Below are positions 11,998 to 57,417 of a DNA stretch of 64,000 bases, piece after piece. Under the pieces are notes generated by a model. It was not told the origin of the DNA, did not search any database, and was given only the letters and a program-made list of their open reading frames with translations. This stretch comes from Pochonia chlamydosporia 170. Lineage: Eukaryota > Ascomycota > Sordariomycetes > Hypocreales > Clavicipitaceae. The stretch covers positions 4,712,001-4,776,000 of the forward strand of contig NC_035793.1 in NCBI RefSeq assembly GCF_001653235.2. Reading direction: 5' to 3'. How positions within the stretch are numbered: position 1 is the first letter of the stretch; each line of letters opens with the position of its first letter. Both the position numbers and the translations under genes were made by a program.

Positions 11998-14900
11998 ATG
12001 GCTGCGTCTCAGGAACACCGCTCCAATGAGCGCGAAAGAGCAGTCCTTGATCGCCAATTGAATGGACTTCCAATTGAGGACAAGGAGAAGTCGAAAAGAA
12101 ATGTATTGGCATATGCAACAGCTTCAGACAAGGTCATCTTGTCCGTTAGTTCGGTGTGCGCAGTCTTTGCTGGGGCATTAAATCCTCTTGTGCCTGTAAG
12201 CAGAACACAAACATTGGCAATTCGCATTCAATCTCCCAATCTCACTCATGTAGGTTATTTACGGCCTCTTGGTCGCCGTATTCAATGGCTTCGAAGCAGG
12301 CACCGTCAGCGGCCAGGAGCTGCGCTCCAAAATTTCCACCTTCAGTTTGTACTATGTCTATCTCAGCATCGGTCTCTTCGTCTTCACGTACATTGCGACG
12401 GTGGGATACTACTATTCCGGGGAGCGCATAACTCGGGCCTTACGAACAGCATACCTATCGGCTATTTTGCGACAAAACATCGCCTTTTTCGATCTCCTTG
12501 GTCCGGGCGAGGTGACTAACCGAATTATGTCAGATATGGGAACAGTTCAAGAAGCCGTCACAAGCAAGCTTTCCGTTCTGTTGAGCGCGGTTGCGACCTT
12601 TTGCGCTGCTTTTATCGTTGCATTCGTCATGTATTGGAAGACTGCGTTAATCATGAGTCCCTTCTTCGTGGCTATGCTCGCGAGTGCTAGTATTGGTGGT
12701 GCCTACGCTGTCAAGTATCACAAAGGCGCGATGGAATTATATAGCCAGGCTTCGAGTATTGCTGAAGAGGGCATCAGCGCTATACGACAGGTGACAGCGT
12801 TTGGAATACAGCGTGTTTTATTGGAGCGGTACATGTCTGTGTTGAGACAAGCTGAGAAAACGGATAATAAGGCGGAAACCACTGTGGCAGCTTTGATTGC
12901 GTGGATGAATACCATGCCTTGTCTGTTATATGCGCTTTCTTTCTGGGCCGGCTCTAAATATCTGATCAAAGATGAGATATCGGTTGCAGGCATCACCGCG
13001 ACGACGCTAGCCGTCACGATTGGGTCTTTTGCCATTATTCGAATTGCTCCATCTGTTCAGTCATTGACTTCGGGGGTTGCTATTGCGGGAGCCGTTCTGA
13101 AGTCCATTGCGAGGAAGTCTCCTCAAGATCCACTAGGCGAAGATGGTGACAAGCCTGAAAAGGTTGTGGGAGACATTCATTTCAACAATGTCAACTTGGT
13201 GTATCCATCGCGAGATGATGTCAAGATCTTGAATGATTTAACTTTGGCCTGTCCTGCTATGAAGAAGACGGCAATCGTTGGCTCGTCGGGAGGCGGAAAG
13301 AGCAGTGTGTTAGGGCTGATAGAGCGTTTCTATGAACCAACGGCCGGCTCAGTCTGTAAGTATTATTTGCCTTTTTATGCTTTGCTTTGAGAAAATATCT
13401 TGCTAAGAATGCAGCTCTTGATGGACGCGACGTCCAATCGCTGAATCTTCGCTGGTTACGTCGACAAATCGCCCTGGTTGATCAAAACCCCGTGCTGTTC
13501 AATGCTAGCATTTTCGACAACATCAAATACGGCTGCTCTGAGATACTTTCCCAGCTCTCTGAAGATGAGATCCGCCAGCGAGTTATCGGCGCCGCCACAG
13601 AAGCATATGCCCACGACTTCATCTCGTCGCTACCAGACGGCTACGACACCCAGGTCGGCGAAAAGGGTCTCCAGCTTTCAGGGGGCCAAAGGCAAAGGGT
13701 CGCCATTGCGCGAGCCTTGATAAAAGATCCCAAGATTCTCCTCCTCGATGAAGCAACGTCCGCCTTGGATTCTAAATCCGAGGCTGCAGTGCAGGTAGCG
13801 CTAGATGCTGCCTCTCAGCACCGTACAACCATCATAGTTGCGCACCGACTATCAACTATTCGAAATGCTGATAATATTATTGTGCTTGCAGAAGGGAGAG
13901 TTGTGGAACAAGGAAAGCACGAAGAGCTCATTGCTCAGGACGGACTGTATGCCGCCTTGGTTGACAAGCAGCAGGTCGAAGATGCTACAGTCACAGCCAG
14001 TGATGCGTCGGATCACTTGTCTATTGAAGAAATTAAGGAAAGTGCCATGATTGACACTCCAGGTGAGCATGATGAAAAGGCTGGTCTGGCTGGCAACCGG
14101 GTCTATGGCTCGACGCCCCGTGAAGCCGCAAGAGCAACAAGAAAAGATGCCCGTCGTCCACCTAGCGCCAAACAAACACTCGCGTTTATTGCTCGGGTGA
14201 GCCGGAGTGATTGGAAGCTTATACTATTTGGGATGACATGTGCCATTTTGGCAGGTTTAGGTATTCCAGCGTAAGTCTCCTAAACCTATCGCCAGCCATG
14301 ACCGGAGCATATACTGACCGTCGGTAGACAAGCCATTTTATTTGCGAAACTTTTGTCGGCAATTGGATTCCCTTCTTCTCGATACGGCGAGATGCAAGAC
14401 CAAGTCAATCTCTACTCCGGACTATATGTTGCTCTTGCCGCCGCCGCTTTCGTGTTCTGGTTGACAGTCGGGATATCATTAGCATGGGCTACACAGAAGC
14501 TATCGCAACGACTCCGTGAAATATGCTTCAAATCCATCATAGTGCAAGACATGGCCTTCTTCGATGAACCGGGAAATACGCCTGGAGCCCTTTCGAGCGT
14601 TCTATCAAAGAGCATCACCGACCTCTCTGGGATGGGAGGACCCGTTATTGGCGGACTGCTGACATTCATCTCAACAATCCTGGGTGGAATAGTGCTATCC
14701 ATAGCCATCGGATGGAAACTAGCACTTGTTTGCACGGCCACGATACCAATCGTGGTAGCTTGTGGATGGTTACGCCTGATGGTTCTCACAGCATTCGATA
14801 CCAAAATCCGGCAGAGCGGCACGGATGCGGCTGCTTTTGCGGGAGAACTAGTTCGCTCAGTACGAACGGTTGCATCTCTAGGACTTGAAGAGTACGCTTT

Positions 14901-16085
14901 GGCACGATATGACGGATTCCTCGCCAGTCATGCATCCAAGTCTCTTCGATCTATTCTCACAGCTTCCAGTCTGTACGCTGCATCACAGTCTATTGTGTAT
15001 CTGTGCGCAGCTCTGGCATTCTGGTATGGTGGTATTCTCATTGCTGACCGTGAATATTCTACCTTTCAAGTGTACATCTGTTTTGTAAGTCTCATTTCAG
15101 GGGCTCAGATTGCAGGTTCCATTTTTACGTTTGCACCTGATGCAAGTAAAGCGATGCATGCGAGTCAAGAGCTCCAGTACATCATGGAACTGAAGGCTAC
15201 TATCAACAAGAATCCATTTCAAGAACAGCCACGCCGGAATGTACTTGCAGAAAATGAAAAGGGTAAGCAAACTTTGCAGCAAGATACTGCTTGTCGAATT
15301 GAGTTTGAGCGAGTATCCTTTACGTATCCCTCGCGGCCAAACAGCTCTGCATTGTATGAGTTCAGTGTTACAGTCAAACCGGGTCAGACGCTCGCTCTCG
15401 TAGGACAAAGCGGCAGCGGTAAAACGACGTGCATTTCATTACTAGAGCGCTTCTATGAACCTGACCATGGACGAATCCTTGTTGACGGGCAAGATATCAA
15501 GAGTACGGACGTTGATGCGTATCGACAAGCTATCTCGCTCGTTAGCCAGGAAACAATCATCTTTTCGGGAACAATACGAGAGAATATTGCGATTGGTCTG
15601 GCTGGAGAGGAAGCCAGCGACGCTGATATTTTAGAAGCTTGTGGACAAGCCAATATCCTCGAGTTTGTTGACTCTCTTCCGTAAGTTTCGTCAACACCAG
15701 ACGCTTTCCCAAGTTTTTCATTCTAATTTCGAGCAGGGACGGGTTATCAACATTAGTAGGCACGGGAGGCAGCATGCTCAGTGGTGGTCAGAAACAACGC
15801 ATAGCCATTGCACGCGCTTTCCTGCGCAAGCCGAGAATTTTGTTACTTGACGAGGCGACGTCTGCGCTGGACACGGAATCAGAGTCAGTCGTGCAGGCAG
15901 CCATGGATGCTATTCGTAAAGATAGAACGACAGTCATGGTGGCACATAGATTGAGCACAGTGAGGAGCGCGGATATTATTTGTGTACTCGCTGATGGGGG
16001 GTTGGTGGAAATGGGGAGTCATGAGGAGTTGATGGAGAGGAAGGGCAAGTATTTCGAGATGGTTGCTATGCAGAACTTGCATTAG
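11998..16085 (+). CDS. fsqE: ABCB-type multidrug exporter (fsqE-like)
   Basis: Model join(11998..12195,12254..13355,13415..14270,14328..15680,15737..16085), 1285 aa. All four introns are 56-59 bp with GTAAG-type donors and keep phase. It is a full P-glycoprotein-type transporter, TMD1-NBD1-TMD2-NBD2. NBD1 has Walker [10 protein letters not shown] (about residue 409), signature [15 protein letters not shown] and Walker [15 protein letters not shown]2 has Walker [10 protein letters not shown] (about 1078), signature [15 protein letters not shown] and a second [10 protein letters not shown]. Both sites look catalytically complete. It should sit in the plasma or vacuolar membrane and export the cluster product or give self-protection. 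It is the first cluster gene and is read in the same direction as the NRPS-like gene 575 bp downstream, matching the ABC transporter fsqE of the fumisoquin cluster. Confidence 0.93.
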
Positions 16086-16660: not shown

Positions 16661-19600
16661 ATGGTATCTTCCACTTCGAATACCATGTCCTCACACAGCA
16701 CTCGTACCAGCCACGTCGGCTTGGATGTCGAGGCGAATTATTCTCACATCAATGGACATAAAGCACAAGGGGCAAACTCGAAAACTGAGGATCTAGCGAC
16801 ATACCTACCAACATTGTTGAACGGTTCAACGGCAACCTCGAACCAATTGGCCTTGACCAAGTCTACATCACTTACATCCATCGATGCATTGTCTAGCAGC
16901 GCAAAGACGGAGAACGACCTGATCAAGTCCTGGGCTATACTACTTCACCTATATGCGGTTGCTGATACCGTCTGTTTCGTGGTTTCCGGCCAACTACGAG
17001 ACAATGATGCCCACACTGGATCATTTGCACAACTGGTGACTTCACAGTGGTCACGACCCTCGTCAGAGCAAAGCGTCGAGCCTCAACTGCGACTTGAGCC
17101 TTATGTTTCTTCGGATCACGCAAGTAAAGCTAATACTTTGGTCCAATTTGGCGGGCCCGACGTCGTTGACAAGGATTTCAGCTATGTCTTGCAGTGGAAT
17201 GGGCGAAACTCTACAGACCTTTGTCTACACACGAGCCAGGAGATAGTGCCTCTGGTGTTTGCAGGCTCAGTATGGGACACTCTGTTGGAAGTTTACCAAA
17301 GTGTCAGCCATGGGCTCCAACTTGGAGTATCTCTCAGCGCCGCGGACCAGACAGCCATTCGGGAGGAGGTTCAGAACCCGCTATTCGAAGAGCGACTGTG
17401 TTTACACCAGCTTTTTCAAGAGTCCGTCAGACTCGCCCCCAATGCTCAGGCCGTGTCAGCGTGGGATGGATCTCTTACCTACACTGAATTGGATCAGTTG
17501 TCAAACGTTCTAGCAGCTCAGCTTATTGAGAGCAGTGGCGTTTCGCCAGGAAAATACGTCGCTTTCTCTTTTGAGAAGAGCATGTGGATGGTTGTTGCCG
17601 TCCTTGGAATTCTCAAGGCCGGAGGCGCCATTGTGTCCATTGACCCGTCTCAACCGGATGGCCGAGCTGAAGAGATACTTAAAGAGATCAAGGCAGATGT
17701 TATTGTAACATCCCCTAAACAAGCTTCAAGATTTGTCAATCTTGTCCCGAAAGTCGTTCAAATATCGTCAAAAACCATACACACTAGCAGGAACGGCAGT
17801 CCAACCATTCCAATACTACCTGTCGTTCGGCCGCACAACCCTGCCATGGTCATCTTCACTTCAGGATCAACAGGGAAACCCAAGGGCATCGTCATATCAC
17901 ATGGTGCAAGTTCAACTCGCATGATAACGGAGGGCAAGTCTCTCTTATACGAGGGCGCAAGAACTCTGCAGTTCGCTGCATCGACATGGGACATCTTCAT
18001 GACGGATATATTCACCACATTGACATACCGGGGCTGCATTTGTGTCCCCAGCGAGGAAGAACGACGATTCAATCTCGCCAAGTTTTGCAAGGAGAAGGAG
18101 GTTACGCTTGCACTCATTACGCCATCGCTTGCTGATTTACTTGACCCGGTGGACTTTCCGACTCTGAAGGTGCTTATCTTTGGAGGAGAGGCCTTGAGGA
18201 AAGACATTGCTCGGAAGTGGATGAATGTGAAGGGCCTTACACTGCTTCAGGGCTATGGACCGGCAGAAACGGGTTTCATTATTGGTACCTCGAAAGGGGA
18301 TGTACAGTTTGATGAACGCCCAGAAGTTCTGGGTTACGCGAGAGGTAACTCCGTTTGTGTACTTGTCGACCCGGAAAACCATGATAGGCTTGCTCCTCGT
18401 GGAGCAGTCGGTGAGCTAGTCGTTGGCGGTCCGACTCTCTTCTCGGAATATCTCAATGCCCCTGAAAAGTCGAAGGCGGCTATAATCCAGAGTCCGTCTT
18501 GGGCAGCTGACTTGGGTTACGATGTGAAACGGTTCTACAAGACGGGCGATCTCCTTCATCAGAGTCTAGATAAGCTAGACGGCCGGATGGAGTTTGTTGG
18601 TCGCAAGGATGACCAGGTTAAATTCCACGGGCAGCGCATTGAGCTGAAGGAGATTGAACACCACCTGCGAAATCTTCGTGGTGTAGAGAATCGTGTGGTC
18701 TCATGCGTGGTAACTCTCCCCAAGACGGGTCAGTTTAGAGACAAACTGGTCGCAGTCGTTCAATGCGATACGAACAACGCCGAGGGAGTTGATGGAATAC
18801 TTTCCATACGGCATGATGTTTCTTTGACCGTATCTACTGTCAAGAAAGCCTTGTCTTCCACGCTTCCTGCTTATATGATCCCCAGCGAGTTACTAATTGT
18901 TCATCAAATACCCCATAACAGTGCCATGAAGCTTGACAGGGCTCGTGTGAATCGATGGGTCTCTGAATTGCAGATTGATGAAGTGAGATCAGGCATCGAT
19001 CTGCAGCTCGAGGGCGAGGTCTTGCTTAGCCAGGAGCTAACCGCTAGATCTATAGCGAGAGAGTATGCTCGTCTTGTATCCGGAAATGATGCAACTCGCC
19101 GACAGCGTTGCGAAAACAAAGATTTCAACCTCCAAGCCGGAGGCATCGACTCAATTCAAATCATTTCGCTCTCCATGTTCATCTCAAAGACGCATAGTGT
19201 CCAGGTTCCCATGGCGGATATTCTAAGTTCACGGGCAACGATTCGTTCAATCGCTTCTATCGTGGACAAGAGGCGGACTACGAGTCAGAAAGAGACAATC
19301 ATTGACCTGGCAAGCGTTGAGAGTGAGGTCAATATCCAACTTCAAGCCATTCGCTCTGGTGCGCTTAAATCTTACTCCAACTCGGACGTGAAGAGTGTGT
19401 TCGTGACAGGTGGAACGGGGTTTTTGGGTATCGAAATTGTTCACCAGTTGCTCGCTCAGTCAGACTGCCATGTTTACGCTCTCGTCAGGGCCCCAACAGA
19501 TCAAGAAGCCACAGAGCGAACTGTTGAAAGAGCCGTTGAAGCTGGATGGTGGGACGAATCCTACTTATCCAGACTCCATGTTTGGAAAGGCGATTTGAAG

Positions 19601-21792
19601 AAACCCCAGTTTGGGCTCACCGACATACAGCTGCAAATGCTTCGAGGGCAATCTCCCAACAGCATTGATGCAATCATTCACAATGGTGCCAAGGTTCACT
19701 ACAACTTGGACTACGACAGTCTCAAAGCCACAAATGTCACACCAACTGTTGAGCTGCTGCGATTGGTAAACGAGCGCGTGAAGCCACTGAAGAGTTTTGT
19801 TTTTGTGTCCGGTGGGCAACAACTTAGCTTTGATGATGCTGGTGACGAAGAAAACGTTACCAAAGCTTTGAACGGGTCTGGCTATGCTCGCTCAAAGGCA
19901 GTATCAGAGCTTCTTGTCAAAAGATTCGCTTCAGAACAGGACACCCAAAAGGTGAAGCATATCCGCGTAGTCAAGCCAGGGTTCATCATTGGCGATGCGG
20001 ATCGTGGTGTCGCAAATCAGACTGACTTCATTTGGAGATTAATTGCCGCTTGTGTCGATATTGGATACTACAACGAGAACGACATAGAAAGCTGGCTGTT
20101 CATCTCGGACGTCACTCGCGTATCACATTCGATTCTGGACAGTGTCTTCCAAGCAAACACCAAACCAGTTGTGAAAGTCCTGGATGGCATCAAGTTCAAG
20201 GATCTGTGGGCGACTCTCGGCCAAAACTTTGGCTACGATCTCCAGCCATTACGTCGCCAGGAGTGGCTTTCGCGAGTTTGCCAAGCTGTGACAGCTAAAC
20301 AGGAAGCCCATGTTCTATTCCCATTGATGTATATGCTGGATACAAGTGATGAACACATCGGACTTCTCAATGGACCGGACAAAGCAACAGACGGAGTCGA
20401 AGCTGCTATCAAAGCAAACATTCGACATCTCCTCAAAGTCGGGTATCTGCCTCAGCCAAGCTCGGTAGCAACTCCTGCGTCCTCCCAGGATGGTGAAGTG
20501 TATGAACGAGACGCTTTTGATGTTGAAGCAGTACGCCGAGAATTTCCAGCTTTGCATCAAGGCGTTGTGGCTTTCAACAATGCTGCTGGAACAGTCTTAC
20601 ACAAGGAGGCTATTGACGGTACTCAGAAGTACATGACTGCGTTTCCGTATGAGTTGGGACGAAACGACCCGCAGAGCCAACAGAAAACAGAAAAGCTTAT
20701 GAGTACATATGCTGAACTCGCTTCATTCATGAACGCAGAGCCTGACGAAGTTGGTGAGTTTGCTGTTGCACGGCAAGGATTACATGCGGGAATTCAAGTA
20801 TAACTAACTTTTGACTAGCCTTCGGACAAACATCCACCTTCCTACTTCGCATGCTTGGTCAAGCACTAAAGCCCCATCTCAACTCAGATTGCGAAATGAT
20901 CGTTTCGAATCTCTGCCATGAAGCCAGCGCTGCTGCATGGGTTGCACTAGCAAAGGATCTAGGCATCGCGATCAAATGGTGGGCACCACCACCTGGTGAC
21001 GACCCGTGCTTGTCTGTGGAAACACTAAAACCTCTATTGACTTCTAAAACACGAATCGTCACTTGCAACCATGTGTCTAATGTGGTGGGCACAATTCATC
21101 CCATCCGCCAGGTAGCCGACTTGGTTCACACCATCCCCGGCGCCATCGTCATTGTCGACGGCGTCGCATATGCGCCTCACCGACCCATCGACGTCAAGGC
21201 CTTTGATGTGGACTTTTATTGCTTCAGTTGGTACAAGGTTTTTGGCCCGCATGTCGCCCAGCTCTACGGTCGACGTAGCGTGCAAAAGCGCCTGTTACAA
21301 GGTATAAGTCATTACTTCCTCGGTGATATGCCTGGCCTCGACTGGCGTTTACGACTGGGCGCCAACTCATTCGAGCTAGAGGCAGCCTTGGTTCCCATAA
21401 CCAAGTACTTGAAGAGAGTGGGTTGGAAGAACATCGTCGCTCAGGAGACGCTTCTACAGGAAATCTTCCTCGGCCATCTCAGACGCCGACCGGATGTCTT
21501 CCGCATCTTTGGCGAAAAGTCATCCGACTCGAGTAAACGTGTTCCAGTGGTTACGTTTCGAGTTACTGGCAAGACTTGCCTTGAGGTTACGAATAAGATT
21601 TGTCAGAAGGGGAGGTTTAGAGTTGTGTCAGGGAATTGCTGGGCTCCGAGACCTACGCATGATGTGTTGGGGTTGGACGAGGATGGGCTGATTCGAGTTA
21701 GTTTTGTGCATTATAATACTGTGGCTGAGGTGAAGGAGTTTTGTGAGGAGCTTGACTTGGTTGTGGCTACTTTGGATAAAGAAGCTAAGTAG
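16661..21792 (+). CDS. fsqF: NRPS-like enzyme A-T-R-aminotransferase (fsqF-like)
   Basis: Model join(16661..20753,20819..21792), 1688 aa; the 65-bp intron joins ..PDEV to AFGQTS. Domains in order: an N-terminal region without a complete condensation motif; an adenylation domain (A3 FTSGSTGKPKG 399-409, A5 GYGPAET 531-537, YKTGDL 626-631, GRKDDQVKFHGQ near 647); a thiolation domain with the phosphopantetheine Ser831 in GGIDSIQ; an NAD(P)-binding thioester-reductase-like domain (TGGTGFLG 916-923, catalytic Y1075xxxK1079); and a C-terminal class V aminotransferase/cysteine-desulfurase fold with the PLP lysine in SWYKVFGPH (K1504). This fusion without condensation domain is the layout of fumisoquin FsqF, which is reported to supply a serine-derived dehydroalanine unit that forms a C-C bond with activated tyrosine. 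A-domain Asp in STWDIF is the usual alpha-amino-group contact, so an amino acid substrate fits. All catalytic residues seen are intact. Confidence 0.93.
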
Positions 21793-22674: not shown

Positions 22675-23886
22675 CTAGCTGTCGTGAGAGTAATTACCCC
22701 TGAGTGAATATATGCCTAGTCAATGTTAGTTTTCATCCAAAACTCAGTAAAAAGACAAGTTCCATACCATAAGACTCATCGTCGTTCATCCAACTCTCTA
22801 TCACTGACCCGCCAGCGTGCTTACAAATATCAAGTACCTTTCCTTTGGGCCACTTCCCACTTCTAATCGACCGCATCGTCTCACCCCTTTTGAAGTGGTA
22901 CTCCTCGCCGGCAATACTCACCGTCAGATCCTTCCGAGACACGTAAAAAGCTTCGTGCATCCAGAGCTCTGGGTTCCATTTCCCCATGAATTCCCAATCG
23001 TTCACATCGAACGCGTCCGTGCCCAATAGTTCATTCGCATGTACCAGGCCATTCAGGACAAAGTCTCGGTTGGACTGTGCCTCGTATGATTGCGCAATTT
23101 CCCGTAAATCTTGACTGCCGTCCAATCCTACTATTAATGATGAACCGCTGCTAAGAAAGCTGCGAATGTATTCGGACGCTTCGTGGGGGGTGAAGTTTGC
23201 CATGCTGTTTCCGAGCCACATGAGTGTTGTTCGGGAATTAGAATTGCTGGTGTTGGGCTTTAGCCATGCTGCGCAATCCTCATAGGTCCCTAATAAACCC
23301 TGAATTCTAATAGTTGATGTTGCTACCGGGAACAGAGACTGCAGTTCGCGAAGGCATCGTCTCAGTGCGGTGCGATCTACATCACATGCAATGTACTGAA
23401 TGTGCTTGCGTTGCGCTTGTAACGTGTGTAGCACAAGGGCTGTCTTCTTCATGTTTCTGTGGGTTGGGAATGAGCAATTTAGTCTGAGTCTTGACGGCGT
23501 GTGTTTGCTTACCCAGCACCGAGCTCTATCAGCCGGTCGCCAGAGGAGATGGTATGGGTGATCTTGTGAACAACATTGTGTAGTAGTGACCATTCCCTTG
23601 TGGCGGGATAGTAGTTTGGAGACTCCAAAACAGCATCAAAAAGTGATAAGCCGCGATCATTCCAGAGTAGCAGTGCTGGAAGCTCCCTAGGGCTGGACAA
23701 TAATCCATCGACGATGCTGGGAACTAGGCTCTGAGCGGTGGGTTGTTGACGAACATCATGAAGTGGTATTCGTTCAGCACGGAGACGCTTTTGAGGCCGA
23801 TGAGCCTTTTGCGGCTTGATTTCATCGGTGTTCCTGGCTTTTGGCCAAGTGAAAACATCCCTTGTGAAAGCAAATGTTGAAGCCAT
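22675..23886 (-). CDS. fsqC: EgtD-family SAM-dependent N-methyltransferase (fsqC-like)
   Basis: Model complement(join(22675..22715,22768..23456,23513..23886)), 367 aa. Intron 1 restores the SAM-binding glycine motif as LIELGAGNMKKT. The last intron (donor GTATGG, branch CTAAC, acceptor CTAG) replaces an implausible tail by ..DDESYGIYSLRGNYSHDS, matching the family's hydrophobic C-terminal strand. The order PALLLWNDRGLSLFDAV, LIELGAGN, YIACDVD, LMWLGNSMANF is that of the histidine-specific/EgtD methyltransferase fold (DUF2260), which includes the ergot enzyme EasF and the fumisoquin enzyme FsqC. No sulfoxide-synthase domain is attached, so it is not an ergothioneine enzyme. The inferred role is N-methylation of the tyrosine-derived amine, supplying the carbon later oxidised to close the isoquinoline ring. 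It is divergent from the flavin oxidase gene, 733 bp away. Confidence 0.88.
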
Positions 23887-24619: not shown

Positions 24620-26167
24620 ATGGCCGTGCCTCTCTCGGTAATAATTGTCGGCTCAGGCGTTTTCGGTCGTACGTAAACTTCTAGTTGTAACTAATGCTCT
24701 TCCCTGATTCTAACATACACTTGCATAGTCTCGACGGCATATGCCATGAGCCACGATGCCAAATTTGCCGATTCAAAGATAATACTCGTGGATAGATGGA
24801 ATTTCGAACCCAACTCTGGCAATAATTCTGTCCAGAACCCCGGCGCAGCAAACGCCGACACCTCTCGCGTGATCCGCCGTGACTATCCCCATGGTCCCTA
24901 CGCTTGCCTCGCCCGTGAGGCGATGAAGCACTGGAGGGCCGACTTTGGACAAGATAAGAGATATGTTGAGCAACGGCTATTGTTCTCCGGAGAAGGTAGT
25001 TCTCTACTCCTTCCCAAAAGACAGGGAGATACGGTGAACTACATCAAAACCGCATATGGGGTCAGCTGCGAAATGACTGAGGGAGGAAAAGATGCGCTCA
25101 AGGTCCTTGACTCTTTGGAAGATATTCGCGTTGAGCTCGGAAATACTACGACCCTCCCAGAGACTCTTCGTGTAGAAGGAAAAGAGGCGAATACTCTAAG
25201 AGGCTACATCTCTGAAGACTGCGGCTGGGCCAATGCTGGAGCTAGCATTGAGTGGCTTCGACAACAAGTCATCCGCCTTGGTCGAGTGGAATTCCGTGTT
25301 GGTCATGTTGAAACCCTTCTTGTATCGGACGACGGTACACAGATCCAAGGCGTCAAGCTACAAGATGGATCGACCGTGCATGCAGATCTCACAATTGTTG
25401 CTGCTGGGAGTCAGACGTCACACATTCTGGGGATCCCGAAGCTCTGCGACGTCTACAGCGAAGTAGCTGCTTACATTCAGCTGTCCGAAGATGAAAGCAA
25501 GGAACTAAAACGAAGAAACTGGCCCTTGATTGTTAATGCCCACCGTGGTGTATTTGCCGTCGGTCCAGATCACGACAATTGCATCAAGCTCGGCCACTTC
25601 TCCTACAGCGGCATGGCAGATGTCCTGAAAGATGCAGGCATCCAAGTCAAGACTCGTGTCGACCCATCCGGCCGCACACCTGCGCAGTTATGGGAAGAAG
25701 ATCCCAAGTACGGCTTCGGGGGAGACGTCACAATCTCAGAACTCGGCGACGTTGTGGACTACGAGGAGGACAAGATGCTCAAGACGCTGGCTGATTTCCG
25801 TCTTTTCCTTCTTGAGCTTTTGGGGCCCTCTGGTCTTGAGGGCATCAATACTCTTGACCATGCGCAGTGCGATGTCATCCTGAATAATATTGCTAATCGA
25901 CCTTTCACGAGGGTACGCAAGTGTTGGTACAACGACACCCCGACACTCAACTTCATCGTGGACTACCACCCATCGTATGGGAAGAGTTTGTTTGTTGCTA
26001 CGGGTGGTTGTGACCATGCTTTCAAGTTTCTTCCTATTATTGGTGAGAAGGTGATTGCGTTGGCGTTGCATCATCGTGGAGTGGAATCGTCGTCGTTGGG
26101 TGAGGCAACGCCGTCGCTGGATGATTTGGTTGAGTTGTGGAAGTTTCCGGCAGAACTCGTGAAGTAA
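24620..26167 (+). CDS. fsqB: Covalent-flavin amine oxidase of the sarcosine/fructosyl-amino-acid oxidase family (fsqB-like)
   Basis: Model join(24620..24668,24729..26167), 495 aa; the 60-bp intron sits inside the dinucleotide-binding motif and splicing restores VIIVGSGVFGLSTAYAM (GxGxxG). A DAO-type FAD domain follows, with the arginine-containing stretch SRVIRRDYPHGPY typical of this family. Cys415 in RKCWYNDTPTLNFIVD occupies the place of the cysteine that holds FAD covalently in sarcosine oxidases and in FsqB (reported as Cys414 there). The C-terminal FAD site is GGCDHAFKFLPIIGE. In fumisoquin biosynthesis FsqB oxidises the N-methyl group to an iminium that is attacked by the phenol ring, analogous to plant berberine bridge enzyme. 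Length and cysteine position strongly favour this over ordinary fructosyl-amino-acid oxidase. Convergent with the regulator gene. Confidence 0.9.
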
Positions 26168-26336
26168 TTTCACGCGTAAAGAAAACAGGTGGTTTTAGTT
26201 TAGAAGCAAGGGATCAATTCACAGAGTATTTAAGCAAATATTTTGCATTGGTTCCCTGAAGAAACAGTGTTGCCCACCCAAGCGCGCCAGAATCCAAGTC
26301 CGCCATGCGTCTAGTCTAGATTTTATGACAACATCA

Positions 26337-27824
26337 TTAATCAATAACTTTTAGTGCGGCTTGAATCTCGCGAATAAGCCGTTTGGCGCGCACCTCCCGT
26401 TTCCCCCCACGATGCGGCAACAAAGGATGCTCATCCTGGTCATACAGTACATCAATCCAACCGCTTACAAGCTTGTCTCGTAGTAGCCCTCCCCTAGCCT
26501 GATTAAAAATACCACTTTGTCTCGATGATCCAATTAAAATACTCTCAATCTTCTCCAACATGTTAAAGCTAACACTTGTCAAGCACTCCAATTGAAGCAC
26601 ATAATCACCATCAAGTTCAAATCCATCAAGTCGAATGCCTGATAGGATCGGGGGAACTGAAGGCGTAGGCTGGGTAATAGACTCTAGGATGGGGGTGAGT
26701 ACATGGTCGTAGGATTGTAAAATATATGCATAGCAAGATAACATGGACAAGAGTGTCGGTATCTCAAGAGCAGGTATAGCGTTGGATGGTGATGCGAGTG
26801 AAGATTTGCTGGATACAGATAAAGTGGACGATCCACAGCGAGACGAGGGAATTTCTGGCGTTTCTGTCACTCCGATCAACCATCTTGAGTCTTCTCGGAT
26901 ACCTCCAGAGTCACCGTCACAGCATGACTGCCTAAGACGCTGGAGAATAGAGAGGAATTCTCGACAATGTTGCAGTGTATGACCGATAGATTGAGTGCCT
27001 GACTCGACATTGTCTTGACCAGAAGTGTCTTCTAGGTTGTTCTTTTCGCGGAGAAGCTTTTCGTTCAGCTTGGCGAGTTCTTGTACGATTGTCCTTGTTG
27101 TTTCGGTGTTTTGCGGAGGCACAAGTGGCGAAGTTCTTCTTGTGTGGGAAGATACCTTCCCTGATGATGATGATTCTGTATGTATAGAATTGGCATCGGC
27201 TGCAAACTGTCGTGGACTCCAATCTACCGAAGGCGGTTTGCTCATTAACTCAATCAGACTTGGGTCCGTTGTGTTGTCCATGATTGAGTCCGGGTGTACG
27301 TTTCGATCAGTGTCGAGCATCCAGCCAGGAGTTTCCAGATTCACATCGTTCCAGTCCATATCGTCTTCGGTAGGGTACGACGACCAGTCATTTGTCGCTG
27401 ACTGAATCGCAGAGGGTAAGTCTGCATCGCGTGGCTGTCTCGGGTTCCGATGTGTATAATGAGTGGATACAGAGTTCCTTGGTTGATGCTGGCCAGGAAG
27501 AGAATCATATCGAGCTGCTGAAGTAGTTGAATTAGGGTTGAATTGTGCCGCAGCATGTGATGGGATTGAGCTGCGACTATTTCTCTCTTGCACCAGTTGT
27601 GAGTCAAGTGTAGTATCTTGAGTCCTTTCAGAAGCTGTGTTCCTCCTGGGAGCTGGCCTAACACTATAGCACTCGACCTTGGCTCGTTTGCACCGATCAC
27701 AAGGTACTTCGTTACGCAGGAAGCGACTAACAGGGTTGAATATTGGCTTTGCGGCTCCAACACATCGTAGCTTCTGACCACGACAACGATCGCAGGCCCC
27801 TCGTCTACTAGCTTCGGCATTCAT
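26337..27824 (-). CDS. Zn2Cys6 transcription factor, AflR-like cluster regulator
   Basis: Single-exon gene, 495 aa, starting MNAEASRRGACDRC. The six cysteines are spaced CX2CX6CX20CX2CX6C (CDRCRGQKLRC ... CDRCKRAKVEC); the 20-residue loop between the two halves is longer than usual. A basic stretch after the last cysteine (SVRPAPRRN) is typical of DNA contact or nuclear import. The middle is Ser/Thr-rich. The C-terminal part (IPTLLSMLSCYAYILQSYDH, then LECLTSVSFNMLEKIE) resembles the AflR-type regulatory domain. It should activate the surrounding cluster genes from the nucleus. The position inside the cluster, 169 bp from the flavin oxidase stop, supports this, and the fumisoquin cluster also has a C6 regulator. 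The binding site is unknown. Confidence 0.88.
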   Translation of the reverse strand: MNAEASRRGACDRCRGQKLRCVGAAKPIFNPVSRFLRNEVPCDRCKRAKVECYSVRPAPRRNTASERTQDTTLDSQLVQERNSRSSIPSHAAAQFNPNSTTSAARYDSLPGQHQPRNSVSTHYTHRNPRQPRDADLPSAIQSATNDWSSYPTEDDMDWNDVNLETPGWMLDTDRNVHPDSIMDNTTDPSLIELMSKPPSVDWSPRQFAADANSIHTESSSSGKVSSHTRRTSPLVPPQNTETTRTIVQELAKLNEKLLREKNNLEDTSGQDNVESGTQSIGHTLQHCREFLSILQRLRQSCCDGDSGGIREDSRWLIGVTETPEIPSSRCGSSTLSVSSKSSLASPSNAIPALEIPTLLSMLSCYAYILQSYDHVLTPILESITQPTPSVPPILSGIRLDGFELDGDYVLQLECLTSVSFNMLEKIESILIGSSRQSGIFNQARGGLLRDKLVSGWIDVLYDQDEHPLLPHRGGKREVRAKRLIREIQAALKVID

Positions 27825-30800
27825 CGTCAGCGACGTAGATCTATCAACGAAGAAGAAGAAGCAAACTCCTGAACGTAAAAGCTTTTAAACTGCTGAGAGA
27901 CAGGGTCTTACATATAAGTGGTGCTGACGATAGACTGACGGATGGAATGACCTTCATGTCAACTATACGCTGTGTCAGTGGTTCATCTGCCGACCAGCGG
28001 GTCAGTCACTAGTGTATGCTCCTGCTTCATTCTCCAGGTTGTTGGATATCTGACCGCAAGCGGAAAGTTTTGTCCGCAGTATACCTACTCTACTTTACAC
28101 TAAGTTGGGTGGCATAGTTCGGAATGGCATTGTCAGGAAGTGGAGTGTTCCTCAACTCACAGTACCCCCATGACTCCCAGATATTGATCTCTACCAATGA
28201 CTCTGCTGAGAATAGACCAAAATGGCGCGATCAATACTAAAAGGTCGAACCCCAAGACTCGTGGCTTCGCTCGTTGTGGATAACACCGGCAGAATGAGGC
28301 AGGACAGAACAACTTGAGTTACATCCAAGCTGACCTACATGGCGAGCGTGGTTTGTTTTCACCTTGCCGCCGCCCCGCTTACACGCTCATGTTCTATGGA
28401 TGATGAGATGAGACGTATACGCTTACGGTTGCGGTATAATAAAGCTTACCGACTCCAACCGAGGTGAGTGCTCTGTTCCTGTGATGGAAAGACAACTCTC
28501 CGCAAGTTGACAAATTTCACATGAAAACCTGTCCAACCGCAAGTGTACGTTGATTAGCGTCGTCAAGGTCCTCCGCAGTATGGACACTTGTTTTGCAAGG
28601 CATGTACGGAGGACTCTTCAATCAACTTGGGCAACGACACAGAAAGAGCGAAACAAAGTCTGTCCAAGGAGAGAAGGTGATTAAGGTGTCAAAGCTTGGC
28701 TTTGGATCTGGACTTTGTTGCTTGCAGAACACCACTGAAACCCGGGAAGTGGCGTTGAGTTGCTTGGCGGAACAGCTGTTCAGAAGCCAGTTTCCAAGGG
28801 TCAGAGACCTTCTTTGCATGTGGCGCAACTGGAACGGAAGCTCATTTGCTGACGGGACGGCTCGGTGCGAGCTTTTTCGTCCTCTCATTGCAGAAACAAT
28901 TGCCCTAGCTTCCTTGGAACCTGGTAACTTGACCGGGGTTAGGGAACCTCTCCCAGGCTGCAGACTTTAAGACAGGATGAGTCGGGCAGAGAGTAACTGA
29001 AGAATTAGTTTACGGAAATTCTATAATGAAAGACATTAGAGTTCTATTTTTGTAGGAACCAGGACCTGCTTTCACCTCACCAACATCTCCTTTGGCCGCC
29101 AACTAAGGGTCTGTTGCTGCACTCTCCCAACTCGTAACTGGAGTCTAACACAGAATGGCATGCTCTTATCTTTTCCCGCCATCGCTTAGTTTTCAACCCA
29201 GCAGGTGCCGTTAGTTCCAAACTACAGGCCGCGAGAGCCGGTCAGCAGCGGGAATCGCCACAGCCCCAAGAAACTGGAGATGACGTCCCGCCTCGGAACC
29301 GTACTGGGAATTAAAGTCCGAGGCTTGGTCTCATCCCCCTGTTCTATACTCCATAGGCACCAGTACTAGAAAAGCTTGTGTCAACGCAAAGGATCTATCT
29401 AGAGCCACGCGGAACCGGCACGCCAAGATCTGCCATTAAGATGGGCCGCAACGCCACCAGGTTCTCAACACCAGGAGAGGAGGTCAATGTCTTAGATGGG
29501 ACCCTTTCTCCAGTTTTCGTGCAGATTCGATATGAGAGGCTGAAATTGTTTGCAGTCTGACATAAGCCCGAAACAACCCATGTTAGCTGGCCAGGACTAT
29601 GCAGTAGTACTTTTGACGAGCGTATCTTCTTGGATCGTTGTGGATTGCCATCGTTCTGGCGATCGCCTGCAGGTGCGGCGTGTTTAATGATGACCGAAGT
29701 AACCCTGTGCTGATGTAGAAGACATGCCATCTTGATTGGAATCAACATCCAGCTTTAATGGCCTATAGCACGCAATTTACTGTCAATTTTTGATGATTTA
29801 CTGACGCGGCTTTTCCCCGAGGCAGCGCCTACAATGAGACGAGGTCGGCACCAGGCGTTCTTTTGGGTTCTGGTAACTAACAGTATGTCTTCAACTCGAA
29901 CCCTGCGTTCAAATCACTCTACACAACACGGATTATGTTGCAAGTAGCTACCAAGCCGCATATAGAGAAACGGAACAGTCGGGGGACATGGTAGCCAGCC
30001 CAGAAAGCTTTAGCTTCTAGTCCAATCGACAATGCCTGCGATTTGGGGGCTAGTCGCAGTTGGTTGCCGGACTTGCTCATTTTAGACGAACTTTTAAATT
30101 GCTCATAAGATTCGACCGTCAGGCTACATCCGAAGGGTTTCGGTGTATTCTCACCGCTGGCTACCTGCCTACTGAAGAGTATGCCGAAACAGACGACTGT
30201 ACTGCTGATGTGGCAACAGTGTCAAAATTATCTTCGTGGGCTTCATTCATATCAGGTGAACCGTTGGTTCGCCATTTCCTGTTAAGAAATGAAAGAAGTA
30301 AGTGACACCAACGGAATAGCTGCATCCTGTGGTCTGCATTTCTAGAAGCTGCAGTACCCCAGGTTCCGGAATATCTGATCCACCCAACTCCAGGTGTCGT
30401 TATGCACAGGACCTGACGCAGTGTTACTTTCCGGTAGCGGAAGTTGGCAAACAAAGCGTAGGATTGGGTGGTATGGTGGACGTTGCCTTGGATGTTTTGT
30501 ATATCGCGATTGCTTTATGTCAACGATTGTTGCCACACTGCCATCATTTTAAAAGTTGTAAAATAACAACAAGGATGTGACAATGCCTGGATGCAAGATT
30601 CTGTTCGTAGTAGGGCAAACTGGTGATGGCATCTCGGCCGAGCTATACTAGAGTTGTTTTGCAAAGGCATGCAAAATGTCATAGTTTAGAGGGTTGCGAC
30701 TAAACTCCGTTTACAAAGACCTTACACGGGATACTAATACTTTTCGTGCTGATTTCTCTAAACCTGTTGTCATGGAAAGGCACTGCAGCCTGATTCTCTT

Positions 30801-30895
30801 GACTTGACCACGGACTGTATGTGCGACTCTCATTTCTCGACAGATGTTGCCGATGTACGACATCTGGACAAGTCCAGTACTTATCTCTACGTATG
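27825..30895. other. Long non-coding stretch inside the cluster
   Basis: About 3.1 kb with no gene I can support. It includes the promoter of the regulator gene, with TTCGGAA near 28119. A 125-codon reading at 28593-28970 and an 81-codon one at 30060-30305 lack recognisable domains. It could hold a decayed gene or a non-coding transcript, but nothing shows this directly. Confidence 0.45.
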
Positions 30896-32919
30896 CTAAA
30901 CCTGAATTAGAGATCCAAGAGTAAGAACATCGCCTCTTATATCACCGTTGACTTCCTTTTTCCCAATGTCCACGACTACCTCCTTCACCTTTAGCCTATC
31001 GAAGAATCCTTCTATAGCACCAGTATCTTCCAAGCCGCAGATGAGACTGACATATCCATCAGGTCGCAATAACACTATACAACCGGTATTTCTATCAATT
31101 CCGCACCTTTCATATACATGCCCATGACCATCGTGATAACTGTCGTCGTCAGCGTACACAGTCCAATAGTTCCACCCATTCTCATCATCCCAGGGCCTGA
31201 AAACGGGGTGCAAATCCATCAACTCAACATCTGCACGTCTCGAACTGTGAACTGTGATTATCTCCACTCCAGGATTTCGAGTCAAGCCTTTGGCAAGCCT
31301 GTCTCCCAAACGACTGAATCGGTCCGTAGCAGCGCCCTCAGCAATATCGCCGGGAAACACAAGAATGCGGAAGCGGCCGTCAGAGCTTAATCGGTGGTAA
31401 GCACGAATTGGGACGCCATCTGACTGATTCACCATTTGGAAATCCGGGAGACGCATTCCATGAGCCAATTTCGTAGCCAGAAAATGTGACTGCGCCTGTG
31501 TCTCCATCGTCTGCACAACCAGCGAGGTAGGATATTGGATCCCGATTCCGGTTGTAAACTTCTGAGCCGCAACATATGCTTTCAAGAACTCATCATGGGT
31601 TGTGTCAGTTCTGGCGAAGAACTCGAGATACTCTCTATCAAAGTTGATCAGAGCCTGTGCAATCGGACGACGCTCGCTTTCATACGTCGAAAGTAGCGCC
31701 GTGTCACATTTGCGCTCAAGACAGTACCGGAGTTTCCAGCCAATATTGTACCCGTCCTGAATACTGGTGTTCATACCCTGACCAGCTTTCGGTGAGTGAG
31801 TGTGAACGGCATCTCCAGCAAGGAATATTCTGTTCTGGTGAGAGAATTCGTCGGCGACTCGTTGTCCGACGCAGTAGGCTGACCACCAGGGGATGTTGCC
31901 TGCCTCAAGAGTATACGGATGAAGAATAGCTTGCGCGGCAGTGACGATGTTTTCTGCGGTGACGCTCTTTGCATCAAGTGATGTGTTGCGGTGGCCGCCG
32001 TCCATGCTGATGTAGAATCGGACGAGCTTGTCTTCTCTTGGGACGCCCATGACGGTGCCGCGGGTTGAATGGACGACGAAGACTTTGCGGATATCGGGGA
32101 AGTTGGTCTTTGGTATCATGTTTAACACACCTGTAGAATGTGAGTTTAGCGCCAGTTCTGCTAATGTATTTTTGGTTGAGTTACGAACCCCATGTTGAGT
32201 CTGTTAGATCTCCCGTGAACTTGATGTTGAGATGCTTGCGCAGCCAACTCCGAGCACCGTCACTTCCGATCACATACTTTGCACAAATCGTCTCTATAGT
32301 GTCTGTTGCGTTGTTTTGCAAAGTCACTGTGATCGGGTATGATTCCGGGTCATCTTTAAGCCTAGAGTCAAGTTTCACGTCAACAGGCTGAGTGTTCCAG
32401 GAAATCTTGACACTCCCATGTTTTTGGAGATTTTCACCCATGACGGCTTCAATTCGTCCTGTAGATCATGTTAGCCAGTAGTCGCAGGAGATGCGTCTGT
32501 GAATGGCGGTACCCTGGTCCAGCGTGACTTCTCGTGGTTTCATCAGTTCTTCGACCTTGTCCGCAATTGTCATCGTTCTTTTAATGACGCCATTCTTGTC
32601 AGGATTCCAAAGAACAATCTCTTCGCATCTCTGCGAATCTTTGAGAATCGTGTCACCGATACCAAATGTATCTAATATTTCGAGGGATATGCTTTTGAGT
32701 CCGTCGGCTCTACCCGCCTTCTCCGGGCCATCCTTCCTATCAATTACTCGGACTCTCAGGTTGGTACCATTGAAGCAATTTGCCGCTGTTAAGCTTTATT
32801 GGCGGCTAGTTAGAAAATAATTCATCAATTTGCTCAACCGCCTTGTGTAGAAGTAGAACCTACCCAGCGGGCCCGGCCCCAATAATGAGAACATCGACAA
32901 GGTCACTGACCGGCGACAT
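30896..32919 (-). CDS. fsqG: FAD-dependent phenol 2-monooxygenase (fsqG-like)
   Basis: Model complement(join(30896..32130,32189..32458,32513..32793,32864..32919)), 613 aa. Three introns, the first using acceptor AATAAAG so that the Rossmann motif reads DVLIIGAGPAGLTAAN; the third has a weak GTTCGT donor but gives the family sequence TWGVLNMIPKTNFPDIR. The DG motif is VIGSDGARSWLRKHL and the GD motif GDAVHTHSPKAGQGMN, so both FAD-contact sets are present. The C-terminal part (HPVFRPWDDENG.., RPDGYVSLICGLED) matches the thioredoxin-like dimerisation domain of phenol hydroxylases. The enzyme uses NADPH and O2 to hydroxylate a phenol ortho to its hydroxyl; here the likely substrate is the tyrosine-derived ring, giving the catechol needed for cyclisation. 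Matches fumisoquin FsqG. Confidence 0.9.
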
Positions 32920-33061
32920 CGTGGCTCTTGTTCAGAATGCAAAGGCTTGCAACAGAGATCAACTTGCAGACCTGTCTATCGATTTGGTATTATGCGTATG
33001 AGTCTATGCTTACTTGGGTTATGATTCATAACACAATAATGGCTGACAATTGCAGCAAACT

Positions 33062-33280
33062 TCATGCTTCAAACTCGGTGGGCCAGTCAGCCATAGACCG
33101 ACCCGATTCCGAACCATCGGCTGCGGGTTGGTAGTCGGAGAGAGTGAAGAGTTTCCGTAAGACGTCCGCAATAGACGGGGCGGTTGTTCTGGGATTGAAA
33201 CCTTTCGGCTCGCAGCGTATCAAGAGTCCATCGTCTTCACAGCAACCATCGCCACTAACTACGTCCATTGTCAAAGTCAT
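33062..33280 (-). CDS. Possible small cluster protein, 72 aa
   Basis: An ATG-initiated 72-codon reading upstream of the monooxygenase on the same strand, with coding-like composition: an acidic, cysteine-containing N-terminus (DVVSGDGCCEDDGLLIRC), then a helix-prone segment SIADVLRKLF and an acidic end. No signal peptide, membrane segment or known domain is visible. It could be a real small gene of the cluster, part of a longer 5' leader, or chance. Its start lies 361 bp upstream of the monooxygenase start codon. Confidence 0.3.
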   Translation of the reverse strand: MTLTMDVVSGDGCCEDDGLLIRCEPKGFNPRTTAPSIADVLRKLFTLSDYQPAADGSESGRSMADWPTEFEA

Positions 33281-34125
33281 GATTCAGTGAAATAAGTAGA
33301 GTAGGTGAGGGAATTTCCTTGAAGCGGATCATCAAGAAGCACCTTCAATTAACCAGCCTGCCAGGGCTTTTGGGCAAGTCCGTCTGAATGTGAATGCACA
33401 CAAACGGGTCGTTGATGGTACGGGAGCTTCACTTATACGGAACCGGTGATTGGTCCCAAGCGCATTGGAAATGGCATGATTATCCCAATATATTTTGAGA
33501 ACCGACCTTAGACCACCATGGTTTCCCTGCTGGGCGTAGTGAAGACTGAGCCTACATTTTACTTGTTCCATAGTTGGCAGCCCGGAGTCAAATTACGTTG
33601 TACGGTAAGTTTCGAGTCAAAGTCTTCATGAATCGGCTTCTTCAGCAGAGATTGGTCATGCAACTCTTTTCAGAAGTAATTACACTATCGCCCAAACCCA
33701 TCACCACGTTCCCGCCAAACGTTTGCGCAGAATGTGCGACCCCAGGAGTCTCAGTTGACTCAGCATTATTCGTGTACTGACAAGTGGTAGCACAGTTTCC
33801 CAACAAAGTCCCAAACTCGTATAGCAGCTTTATGTCTGACATTTAATATACGAGAGACAATGCAGGAAGAATTGGGACGGCTGACCGAAGTCATTGCAAG
33901 TGATTCGGGTGAGATGGATGCTAGAACACATCAGACACTAGGAAGAAGTATGATATGAGATGCTACGAGTCTCACGAAGATACCCCCCAATTGACCGTTT
34001 GCCCTCAAAGTTTCCCTCGACACATTTGTCTACCTTACAATTCGATCAAATGATTGCTGATAGCTGGAATCTCCGCAAGTTTAAAGTGTTCCGGTCAGCA
34101 GCCGCCGAATAGTCGGCAGGGTTGC

Positions 34126-34141
34126 ATTTCGGTTCCGAAAT
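34126..34141. promoter_or_regulatory. Candidate Zn2Cys6 operator (CGG-N2-CCG palindrome)
   Basis: Perfect inverted repeat ATTTCGG-TT-CCGAAAT. Zn2Cys6 proteins typically bind CGG triplets in inverted orientation. It sits between the two divergent cluster genes. Function is inferred. Confidence 0.4.
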
Positions 34142-34544
34142 AGGACGTGACTCTTCGTAAGACGACATCGGCATCGTCGCCCGTCAGACGAAGGATCAAG
34201 ATGATGACTCGGTCGGCCAGAATCGGCTCTCTACGGGAAAAAACAACAACCAACGTGCAGGAGCCTGGCAATGTAAGACTTCACGTGACGGATTATTGCG
34301 ATTGCGTGACCTTGCTGCGACGTTGGTTCCTGCGTTGAGTCACTCATTGCAGTTACATTGGTAGAACAAGTTGCAATTTACAATTTATTGGGCTTGTTGT
34401 GTCTAGTAAGTTGGTGTCATTGTTGTCTTCAAATCGAAACTAGTACTCAATTTCTCCATATTTGCATGCTTCATTAATGCCCCAATTCTGACTGGCTTTG
34501 GCTTCATAGGTGTACCAGATCACAGCAGTCAATACATAGCCGAG

Positions 34545-36583
34545 ATGGCAGTGAACCAGAAATTACAAGTTCACTCAAAACAGAATGATTGTATGGCTTT
34601 TGAACCACTCAAGATGCCCCAGCTATTCAATCCGCTGATTCTTTCATAGCAATTCTACTTGAAGCCTCATGGAGCTTGCTTGACTCTCCGCCTGCACAGA
34701 ACTCATGGCAGTCCATAGACATTAGTTTCCAACAAACATTGGTTTCAAGCCCTATTGAAGTCTTGAATCATCTAGACGATATTTACATTGTGTCCGACGA
34801 CGCGACCCAAAAAATAGACTCAAAGTCATTCACATCACCAAAAGCTTTCCAATTCCTGCTTCAATGCCTACAAGCCACAGCAAGTGGAACTCACCACGGC
34901 CGTCTTGTAAAGCTAATTATCCCTCTACAACAAGGATACATCACACGTTCAGATATCATTCCACTACGTCTCAGAGATTCCGAGTACGTTGAGACAGCAG
35001 TATCATTTGCAGAGCCCTTGCAAACCTACTCCGGAACTGGTGTGCCAGGCACAAAAGCCAGCCTCTCCGCCATCTTCTCTTCAGCGGCAGCGGGCCTGCT
35101 TCTCCATCAAACACCAGGATCAGACATTCAAGCCGAGTATCAGACGCTGTCTTTATCAGCTGAGTCCGATCTAGACAATAGACTCTCACTGCCGTGGATA
35201 CTCCCCGGAACGCCGCCGCAAAAAACGCTGGTATTAGTAGATGCGAATAGTGCCCATCCAGAAGACGGGCTGGGTCTCTACATTGCAGCACGGGAGCTCG
35301 GTATTAAACTCGTCGTGTTAGACAATGGGGGTAGTTGGCTTGAAAAGGAAGAGCACGCGCACTGGCGCGAAGCATTTATCCCAACTCGAATAACCAATCC
35401 GCCCGAAGCCGAAGTCGGCAACCACATCCTAAGATCAGTCCAGGCGTATGGCAAACCGGTAGACGGAATAATCACCTTTGCCGACTCATTCTGGCCATAC
35501 ATAGCGGAAATTGCACCGCAATTAGGTCTCAAAACCGCATCGCCTGAAGCTCTAAGAACAGCAACGAACAAGTACCTCCTTAGCAAATATGTCGGCCACA
35601 CTGCATACAACGCATTCAACCTGGAGGATGCACTCGACATCGCAAATAAGCACCAACTCCCATATCCACTTATTGTCAAGCCCTGCGACGGATGGAGCTC
35701 AGAAGGTGTGTCCCGTGTTGACAACATCGAGGCGCTTACCACGGCTGTCCAAGTGATTGACAACTCTCGCCACGGAAACGAATTCGTCATTGAGCAATAC
35801 TGCGAGGGACCAGAAGTTGACATCAACTTTGTTCTGCAAGATGGCGAGATTCTCTTCTTTGAAGTGTGCGATGATCTTCCCAAGTCCGCGGACATCAACG
35901 GCCACTCGACCACTTCACACAGCAACTTCCACGAACTGAATAGTGTTTACCCCTCGATCCTCCCACAAGATGAAATTGCCTTGCTCCGCGATAGCTTCCT
36001 CAACACAATGCTAAGTCTTGGTCTAAGAGATGGTATAATGCATTTGGAAGGACGAGTTCAGTACTCATCAATGGAGTACAGGCTCCAAAACGGAATCACC
36101 GACCTCGTTCCCGCCAAGACAACCCGCCCTCCAGAAGCGTGGCTCATCGAAATAAACCCACGACCTCTCGGCATGACGGGCTCCTATATTATTGAGTCCA
36201 CATACGGTATCGACTACTGGGGTCTCGCGCTACTTCTTGGCGTCAGCGACAAGGAGCGAGTTCGAGCTTTATCGAAGCCGTATAAGCTCGGTCCCCAGTA
36301 TACTTGCATCATGGTCTTCATCCCCGTCGACTACCCTGTTACGTGTCAGGGTATTTTCGATTCAGAGGATGTGTGTGCCGATCTTAAGGCTAGACGGCCT
36401 GATCTCGCTAAGCAGATTAGTCGGTGTGCGTGTCTGGTGAAGAGGGGGCAGAAGGTTCCTCATCCGAGTACGGGGAGGAATACGTTCCTGGCGTACTTTA
36501 ATGTGTTTTCGAGGGAGGGGAGAGACCATGCGCTTGAGTTGGCGAGGCAGGTTCGTGAGGAGGTTCGTTATTCGTTTATTTAA
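34545..36583 (+). CDS. fsqD: ATP-grasp carboxylate-amine ligase (fsqD-like)
   Basis: Model join(34545..34590,34650..36583), 659 aa; the 59-bp intron (donor GTATGG, acceptor CATAG) supplies an ATG and joins MAVNQKLQVHSKQND to SILLEASW. The C-terminal half is a typical ATP-grasp fold: ATNKYLLSKY lead-in, ATP-binding lysine in PLIVKPCDGWSSEGV, hinge FVIEQYCEGPEVDINFV, and metal-binding residues in the stretch EAWLIEINPRPLGM (E..N.R). The N-terminal half is a long, poorly conserved domain as in carnosine-synthase-like ATP-grasp enzymes. These enzymes form an acyl-phosphate from ATP and couple it to an amine or thiol. In the fumisoquin scheme FsqD is proposed to activate tyrosine. It is the last cluster gene on this side. 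Confidence 0.88.
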
Positions 36584-57412: not shown

Positions 57413-57417
57413 GTTTT

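Follow-up and report, generated by a model that had tools for sequence, protein, structure and literature searches.

The fsq genes of Aspergillus fumigatus are arranged in the order A-B-C-D-E-F-G, and the imizoquins of Aspergillus flavus are fungal isoquinolines that come from a related NRPS-like pathway, encoded by the imq cluster, which has more tailoring genes. According to the available excerpts of the respective publications, the A. fumigatus cluster consists of seven genes, with fsqA controlling fsqB to fsqG (PMC8395729); serine, tyrosine and methionine are the precursors of fumisoquins A-C, and dehydroalanine is proposed to attack an activated tyrosine (PMC6943532); and FsqD, which is biochemically uncharacterised, is proposed to form tyrosyl phosphate (PMC12568646). 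For spathullin of Penicillium spathulatum, an NRPS-like route via dehydroalanine, tyrosine and methionine has been proposed that resembles the fumisoquin route but uses cysteine in the place of serine; the main text of that publication nowhere mentions a gene cluster by that term (PMC6943532). An fsq-like seven-gene cluster has already been published for Clonostachys rosea; as described in the available part of the source, it contains the same seven gene kinds as the locus analysed here, with C-B-A consecutive in one gene numbering, and, unlike in this locus, a dehydrogenase gene adjoins the NRPS-like gene (PMC5999785).

The locus described here, in a Metarhizium-like fungus of the family Clavicipitaceae, can be predicted with high confidence from its genes to be an isoquinoline alkaloid cluster of the fsq (fumisoquin) type with a complete gene set, and thus adds such a cluster from a fungus of this kind. 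Considering that FsqF relatives are widespread and that the C. rosea cluster has been published, it is a further example of a known pathway type and not a new kind. The preliminary description of this DNA had placed the fsq-type cluster in a fungus that is probably not an Aspergillus: the host is indeed not an Aspergillus, but C. rosea provides a precedent (PMC5999785, in the available part). In a literature search judged by titles, no report was found that links Metarhizium to fumisoquin or to an isoquinoline alkaloid gene cluster.

Gene content and order of the locus

Within the window (the whole stretch of 64,000 nucleotides that was analysed), positions 11998-36583 (24.6 kb) encompass seven uninterrupted, spliceable genes:

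11998..16085, plus strand: fsqE-type ABC exporter, 1285 aa, 5 exons (11998-12195, 12254-13355, 13415-14270, 14328-15680, 15737-16085); spliced model, ABC_membrane and ABC_tran
16661..21792, plus strand: fsqF-type NRPS-like enzyme, A-T-R-PLP, 1688 aa, 2 exons (16661-20753, 20819-21792); Pfam, motifs and tree
22675..23886, minus strand: fsqC-type N-methyltransferase, 367 aa, 3 exons (23886-23513, 23456-22768, 22715-22675); identity to homologues, TIGR03439
24620..26167, plus strand: fsqB-type amine oxidase, with covalent FAD by homology, 495 aa, 2 exons (24620-24668, 24729-26167); match to 6gg2
26337..27824, minus strand: fsqA-like putative Zn2Cys6 regulator, 495 aa, 1 exon; cysteine motif only
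30896..32919, minus strand: fsqG-type phenol 2-monooxygenase, 613 aa, 4 exons (32919-32864, 32793-32513, 32458-32189, 32130-30896); Pfam, match to 1pn0
34545..36583, plus strand: fsqD-type ATP-grasp ligase, 659 aa, 2 exons (34545-34590, 34650-36583); Pfam, match to 3vot

The borders are exact, with the start codon of the ABC transporter gene at 11998 and the end of the stop codon of the ATP-grasp gene at 36583. All 12 introns in the seven models are GT-AG introns of 52-70 nt, the first intron of fsqG having a weak acceptor (AAG); several splice sites were set by hand from expected protein motifs, and individual junctions may be off. The frames flanking the junctions are open, and the expected domains are present in all the proteins except FsqA: the Pfam matches across the cluster are to ABC_membrane/ABC_tran, AMP-binding, NAD_binding_4, Aminotran_5, Methyltransf_33, DAO, FAD_binding_3/Phe_hydrox_dim and ATPgrasp_N/ATP-grasp_4, those for E and D coming from single-frame stretches and not from spliced proteins. 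Together with the 67% and 62% identity of FsqB and FsqC, respectively, to the A. fumigatus proteins, the seven open spliced frames bear out the preliminary delineation of a complete cluster at 11998..36583.

The interval between 27.9 and 30.9 kb contains five open reading frames of at least 100 aa, none with a Pfam domain, and a home-made gene finder of low sensitivity returned nothing longer than 53 aa there. No cytochrome P450 gene was found in the window, the 108 matches in the genome all lying outside it (92 of the 183 candidates were scored).

The spliced models reproduce the gene order reported earlier (E-F-C-B-regulator-G-D) as E-F-C-B-A-G-D. This order differs from the A-to-G order of A. 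fumigatus, so that the locus is rearranged as had been claimed; the comparison of gene orders carries little weight, however, because the three adjacencies kept out of six (A-B, B-C and E-F) do not amount to significant conservation, at least three being shared by 22.7% of random orders.

When we searched the genome with C, B, D, G and the PLP domain for a further fsq cluster, we found only an fsqD-like fragment that covers part of the gene, on contig C9, apart from the cluster, with no other fsq genes around it in the 29.8 kb read. The top-ranked matches outside the window share 30% identity with C, 35% with B, 45% with G and 41% with the PLP domain.

Assignment of the encoded proteins

The strongest single tie to fumisoquin chemistry is FsqB, because the A. 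fumigatus enzyme converts N-methyl-dopa into an isoquinoline, a reaction that, like the structure of the enzyme, is established (PMC6222107, in the available part). The window protein aligns with the FsqB of A. fumigatus that has been crystallised (6gg2) over its full length, at 67.1% identity (330 of the 492 aligned residues) and an E-value of 2.6e-226, so that a chance match is not a concern. Thirteen of the 14 flavin-linking, catalytic or pocket residues named in the available part of PMC6222107 are conserved, including Arg63, Arg66, Tyr121, Lys304, Cys414, Asp444 and Lys448 (6gg2 numbering), the exception being I284L. The FAD-linking Cys414 corresponds to Cys415 in the window protein, in agreement with the original identification of this protein as a covalent-flavin oxidase, here an orthologue of 6gg2.

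FsqC shares 62% identity with its A. fumigatus counterpart (P0004) and 70% with that of Conoideocrella (P0002), the values for Lepidopterella and Conoideocrella being in the range of 69 to 70%. The earlier label of an EgtD-family methyltransferase is right only in the broad sense because FsqC scores above the cut-off of the EasF family TIGR03439 (346.8 bits against 205.55) but below that of EgtD proper, TIGR03438 (170 bits against 290.9).

The FsqD, FsqE and FsqG assignments are based on the domain family and the position in the cluster, and that of FsqA on a motif alone. FsqD contains the ATPgrasp_N and ATP-grasp_4 domains in a single-frame stretch, and the L-amino acid ligase BL00235 (3vot, E = 1.8e-10) is its sole relative of solved structure at an E-value of 0.001; FsqG matches phenol 2-monooxygenase 1pn0 (E = 1.4e-126) as well as FAD_binding_3/Phe_hydrox_dim; and FsqE consists of two ABC halves, with ABC_membrane and ABC_tran in two open frames. 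At the family level, these results agree with the ATP-grasp ligase, phenol 2-monooxygenase and ABC exporter that had been named. The claimed C6 regulator is only partly borne out: by eye, FsqA displays the Zn2Cys6-like pattern CX2CX6CX20CX2CX6C, with a long 20-residue spacer, but it has no Pfam match up to an E-value of 0.1. Thus, the statement that the locus encodes exactly the fsq enzyme set stands for B and C by comparison with A. fumigatus and for F by its relatives, whereas D, E and G are identified at the level of the family and A at that of a motif.

FsqF, its relatives and its adenylation pocket

In an alignment with 27 relatives, the A, T, R and PLP motifs of FsqF (FTSGSTG, GYGPAE, YKTGD, GGIDS, TGGTGFLG, YARSK) are intact, and the region of the putative PLP lysine is kept as well. 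The T domain falls below the Pfam threshold (PP-binding, 17.3 bits against a cut-off of 20.8), with the GGIDS motif present, and there is no Pfam match to a condensation domain; Pfam and the motifs thus concur with the proposed A-T-R-PLP architecture of an NRPS-like enzyme without a condensation domain. FsqF is 60-62% identical to the proteins of Aspergillus section Fumigati (62% to A. fumigatus over 1474 columns) and 56% identical to that of C. rosea.

Judging from the best 120 of 2795 matches, which include proteins from Aspergillus, Penicillium, Fusarium, Aureobasidium, Clonostachys and others, FsqF-type proteins are widespread in ascomycetes; the name Metarhizium does not appear among the top 49 rows of the family in this set. 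We constructed a tree of 37 rows by a quick method, with midpoint rooting, several long branches and three other NRPS-like proteins as the outgroup, in which the window protein clusters with the FsqF proteins, away from the outgroup. It joins the metagenome protein P0047 (95% identity, 1365 aa) and the Conoideocrella protein (67%) with a support of 100, and this trio nests (support 94) in a set of 19 rows that further includes the section Fumigati Aspergilli, three Aspergilli of section Flavi, Penicillium olsonii, Tricladium, Whalleya, a Xylariaceae species and metagenome rows.

Among the matches listed, the nearest named relative is the FsqF of Conoideocrella luteorostrata (QQS21_009652), which is followed by FsqC (QQS21_009653; 67% and 70% identical to the window proteins, respectively); the consecutive locus numbers parallel the adjacency of F and C in the window. 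This is one of five FsqC/FsqF pairs whose contigs are equal in length and which are therefore probably located on the same contig (13 FsqC and 13 FsqF rows). The terms isoquinol, imizoquin and NRPS-like are absent from the main text of the C. luteorostrata genome note (PMC12352038).

To compare the substrate pockets, we used 50 FsqF-family rows, namely the window protein and its top 49 relatives among the matches listed, with the numbering backed by GrsA (1amu), the alignment to which ends with query residue 140 at residue 329 of the chain. The code of the window protein, AAWLIGGFIK, differs from AAWLIGGPCK of A. fumigatus at two of the ten positions, 330 and 331 (Phe-Ile versus Pro-Cys), the other eight being identical; C. 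rosea has Pro-Cys like A. fumigatus. The A. fumigatus code is the commonest and yet does not define the family, being exact in only 25 of the 50 rows (Pro330 in 32 and Cys331 in 44), whereas Phe330 and Ile331 are found in three: the window protein, P0047 and Conoideocrella. The same three proteins alone have a pocket loop of 23 residues, compared to 18 residues in 45 rows and 19 in one; the loop region is absent from row P0082. By a rough motif measure, this loop spans 20-23 residues in 82 of 109 other NRPS A domains; hence the short 18-residue loop looks like a trait of the FsqF family, with the longer loop retained or regained in the window branch.

These features suggest that the FsqF loading enzyme may have an altered substrate pocket and, given the departure from the A. 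fumigatus code at two of ten positions, that the first building block may differ. The window and Conoideocrella proteins form a branch with an altered adenylation code, which raises the question of which FsqF residues select the dehydroalanine precursor and hence the alkaloid.

Predicted pathway, alternatives and surroundings of the cluster

The most likely mechanism is the one transferred from A. fumigatus, and we infer each of its steps for the present organism; the order of the steps and the roles of the PLP domain, the R domain, FsqD and FsqG are proposals or family-based assignments. The A domain of FsqF would load a serine-type amino acid onto the T domain of the same protein, and the fused PLP domain would strip the beta substituent to yield a dehydroalanine enamine, which would be united through a C-C bond with tyrosine activated by FsqD. 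FsqC would provide the N-methylation step and FsqG would hydroxylate the phenol to a catechol, whereupon FsqB would convert the N-methyl group into an iminium and attack by the catechol would close the isoquinoline ring. The R domain of FsqF would release the product reductively, FsqE would export it, and FsqA would activate the genes of the cluster. The earlier argument from the lack of additional tailoring enzymes to a possibly new product does not hold, the A. fumigatus cluster having the same seven genes (PMC8395729, in the available part); the identical gene set instead predicts a fumisoquin-like product. The possible novelty of the product would stem from the altered adenylation code of FsqF.

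It is conceivable, if somewhat doubtful, that the cluster works as fsq while its FsqF loads another building block and gives rise to a new isoquinoline. The confinement of Phe330/Ile331 and the 23-residue loop to three of the 50 rows speaks for such a change, as does the proposal for spathullin A, where cysteine is proposed to enter in place of serine, so that the loaded residue may vary in such pathways (PMC6943532, in the available part). The other eight code residues, however, equal those of A. fumigatus, and conservation is also seen in the PLP motifs, in the FsqB site and in FsqC. Furthermore, the A domain is not enriched in changes fixed in the window branch (its 540 of the 1640 residues hold 5 of the 13, with author-set domain borders and excluding rows P0082, P0094 and P0055), and the usual code gives no substrate prediction for FsqF because no row has Asp235, this position being Ala in 49 of the 50 rows and Ser in one. 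We therefore put forward only tentatively, as rather unlikely, that the Clavicipitaceae pathway switched its first building block, with the FsqF of the window and of Conoideocrella loading an amino acid other than serine to give an undescribed isoquinoline; if true, the seven-gene cluster would make such a compound in an insect-pathogen lineage.

A closer affinity to the A. flavus imq cluster than to fsq would fit the isoquinoline nature of the imizoquins and the presence in the FsqF tree of two groups with members of section Flavi, but is very improbable: the gene content is that of the seven-gene fsq set, with no extra gene found, and in this tree of 37 rows the window protein groups with Conoideocrella, outside both of these groups. 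Equally slight is the chance that we are dealing with a copy that is silent or in decay. The fsqD-like fragment on contig C9 implies that this genome may lose fsq genes, and a block of RIP-like composition begins approximately 13 kb from the cluster; nevertheless, the 2 kb bins of the cluster itself lack RIP-like bias, all seven frames are open, the catalytic residues of FsqF and FsqB are kept, and the first part of FsqF, at 95% identity, is also open in another source, P0047. A complete cluster with a predicted fumisoquin-like product remains the reading that we favour.

The sequence TACTCTACTT is present upstream of E, A and G and absent upstream of F, C/B and D; it is weak as a shared promoter motif, given that one shuffle in 60 reached the same degree of sharing and that eight one-mismatch matches occur elsewhere in the window.

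Near the cluster, the open reading frame at 45347-47005 encodes a homoserine/serine O-acetyltransferase that is 91% identical to a metagenome protein, 89% to Metarhizium acridum, 86% to M. album and 81% to Conoideocrella. Going by this one gene, the host would be a Metarhizium-like member of the Clavicipitaceae. The copy of the gene that belongs to the window is recorded on a contig of 5,360,579 bases, so that the window, at 4.71-4.78 Mb of contig C4, probably does not lie close to the contig end. The best named match of this neighbour, M. acridum, accords with the initial attribution of the DNA to a fungus other than Aspergillus.

The putative regulator and a 10-mer shared among promoters

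The putative regulator encoded within the fumisoquin-type cluster is described by the following feature:

26337-27824, putative regulator (fsqA), with the motif CX2CX6CX20CX2CX6C

The CX20 spacer of this motif exceeds the usual length, and no match to the Pfam Zn_clus family was detected in the putative regulator. No recognizable gene was found in the 3 kb gap within the cluster at 27825-30895.

Exact copies of the 10-mer TACTCTACTT are present at three sites in the window (11598, 28086 and 33294), upstream of fsqE, fsqA and fsqG, respectively; among promoter shuffles, 1 of 60 shared as much. Eight further matches, each with one mismatch, are located in the AT-rich block described below or past it.

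Genes and composition outside the cluster

The window also contains the following genes outside the cluster:

5280-5390, U5 spliceosomal RNA gene
45347-47005, gene for a homoserine/serine O-acetyltransferase, separated from fsqD by about 9 kb

Because close relatives of the O-acetyltransferase are present across many Hypocreales, this gene probably is not a member of the cluster.

Further 3', the region 50001-60000 is an AT-rich block (GC content of 28-32% in 2 kb bins) with a RIP-like dinucleotide bias (maximum TpA/ApT of 2.01 and minimum (CpA+TpG)/(ApC+GpT) of 0.12) that was not found in the 2 kb bins of the cluster. Past this block, a 105-nt unit is present in three tandem copies (61600-61914).

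Related sequences elsewhere in the genome

On another contig of the source genome, a fragment (G000:C9:38413-38709) resembles the C-terminal part of FsqD, with 65-67% identity; no other fsq genes were found in the surrounding 29.8 kb that were read. Separately, a 433 aa frame on a further contig (G000:C2:5652811-5654001) shares 41% identity with the PLP domain that forms part of the NRPS-like enzyme FsqF.
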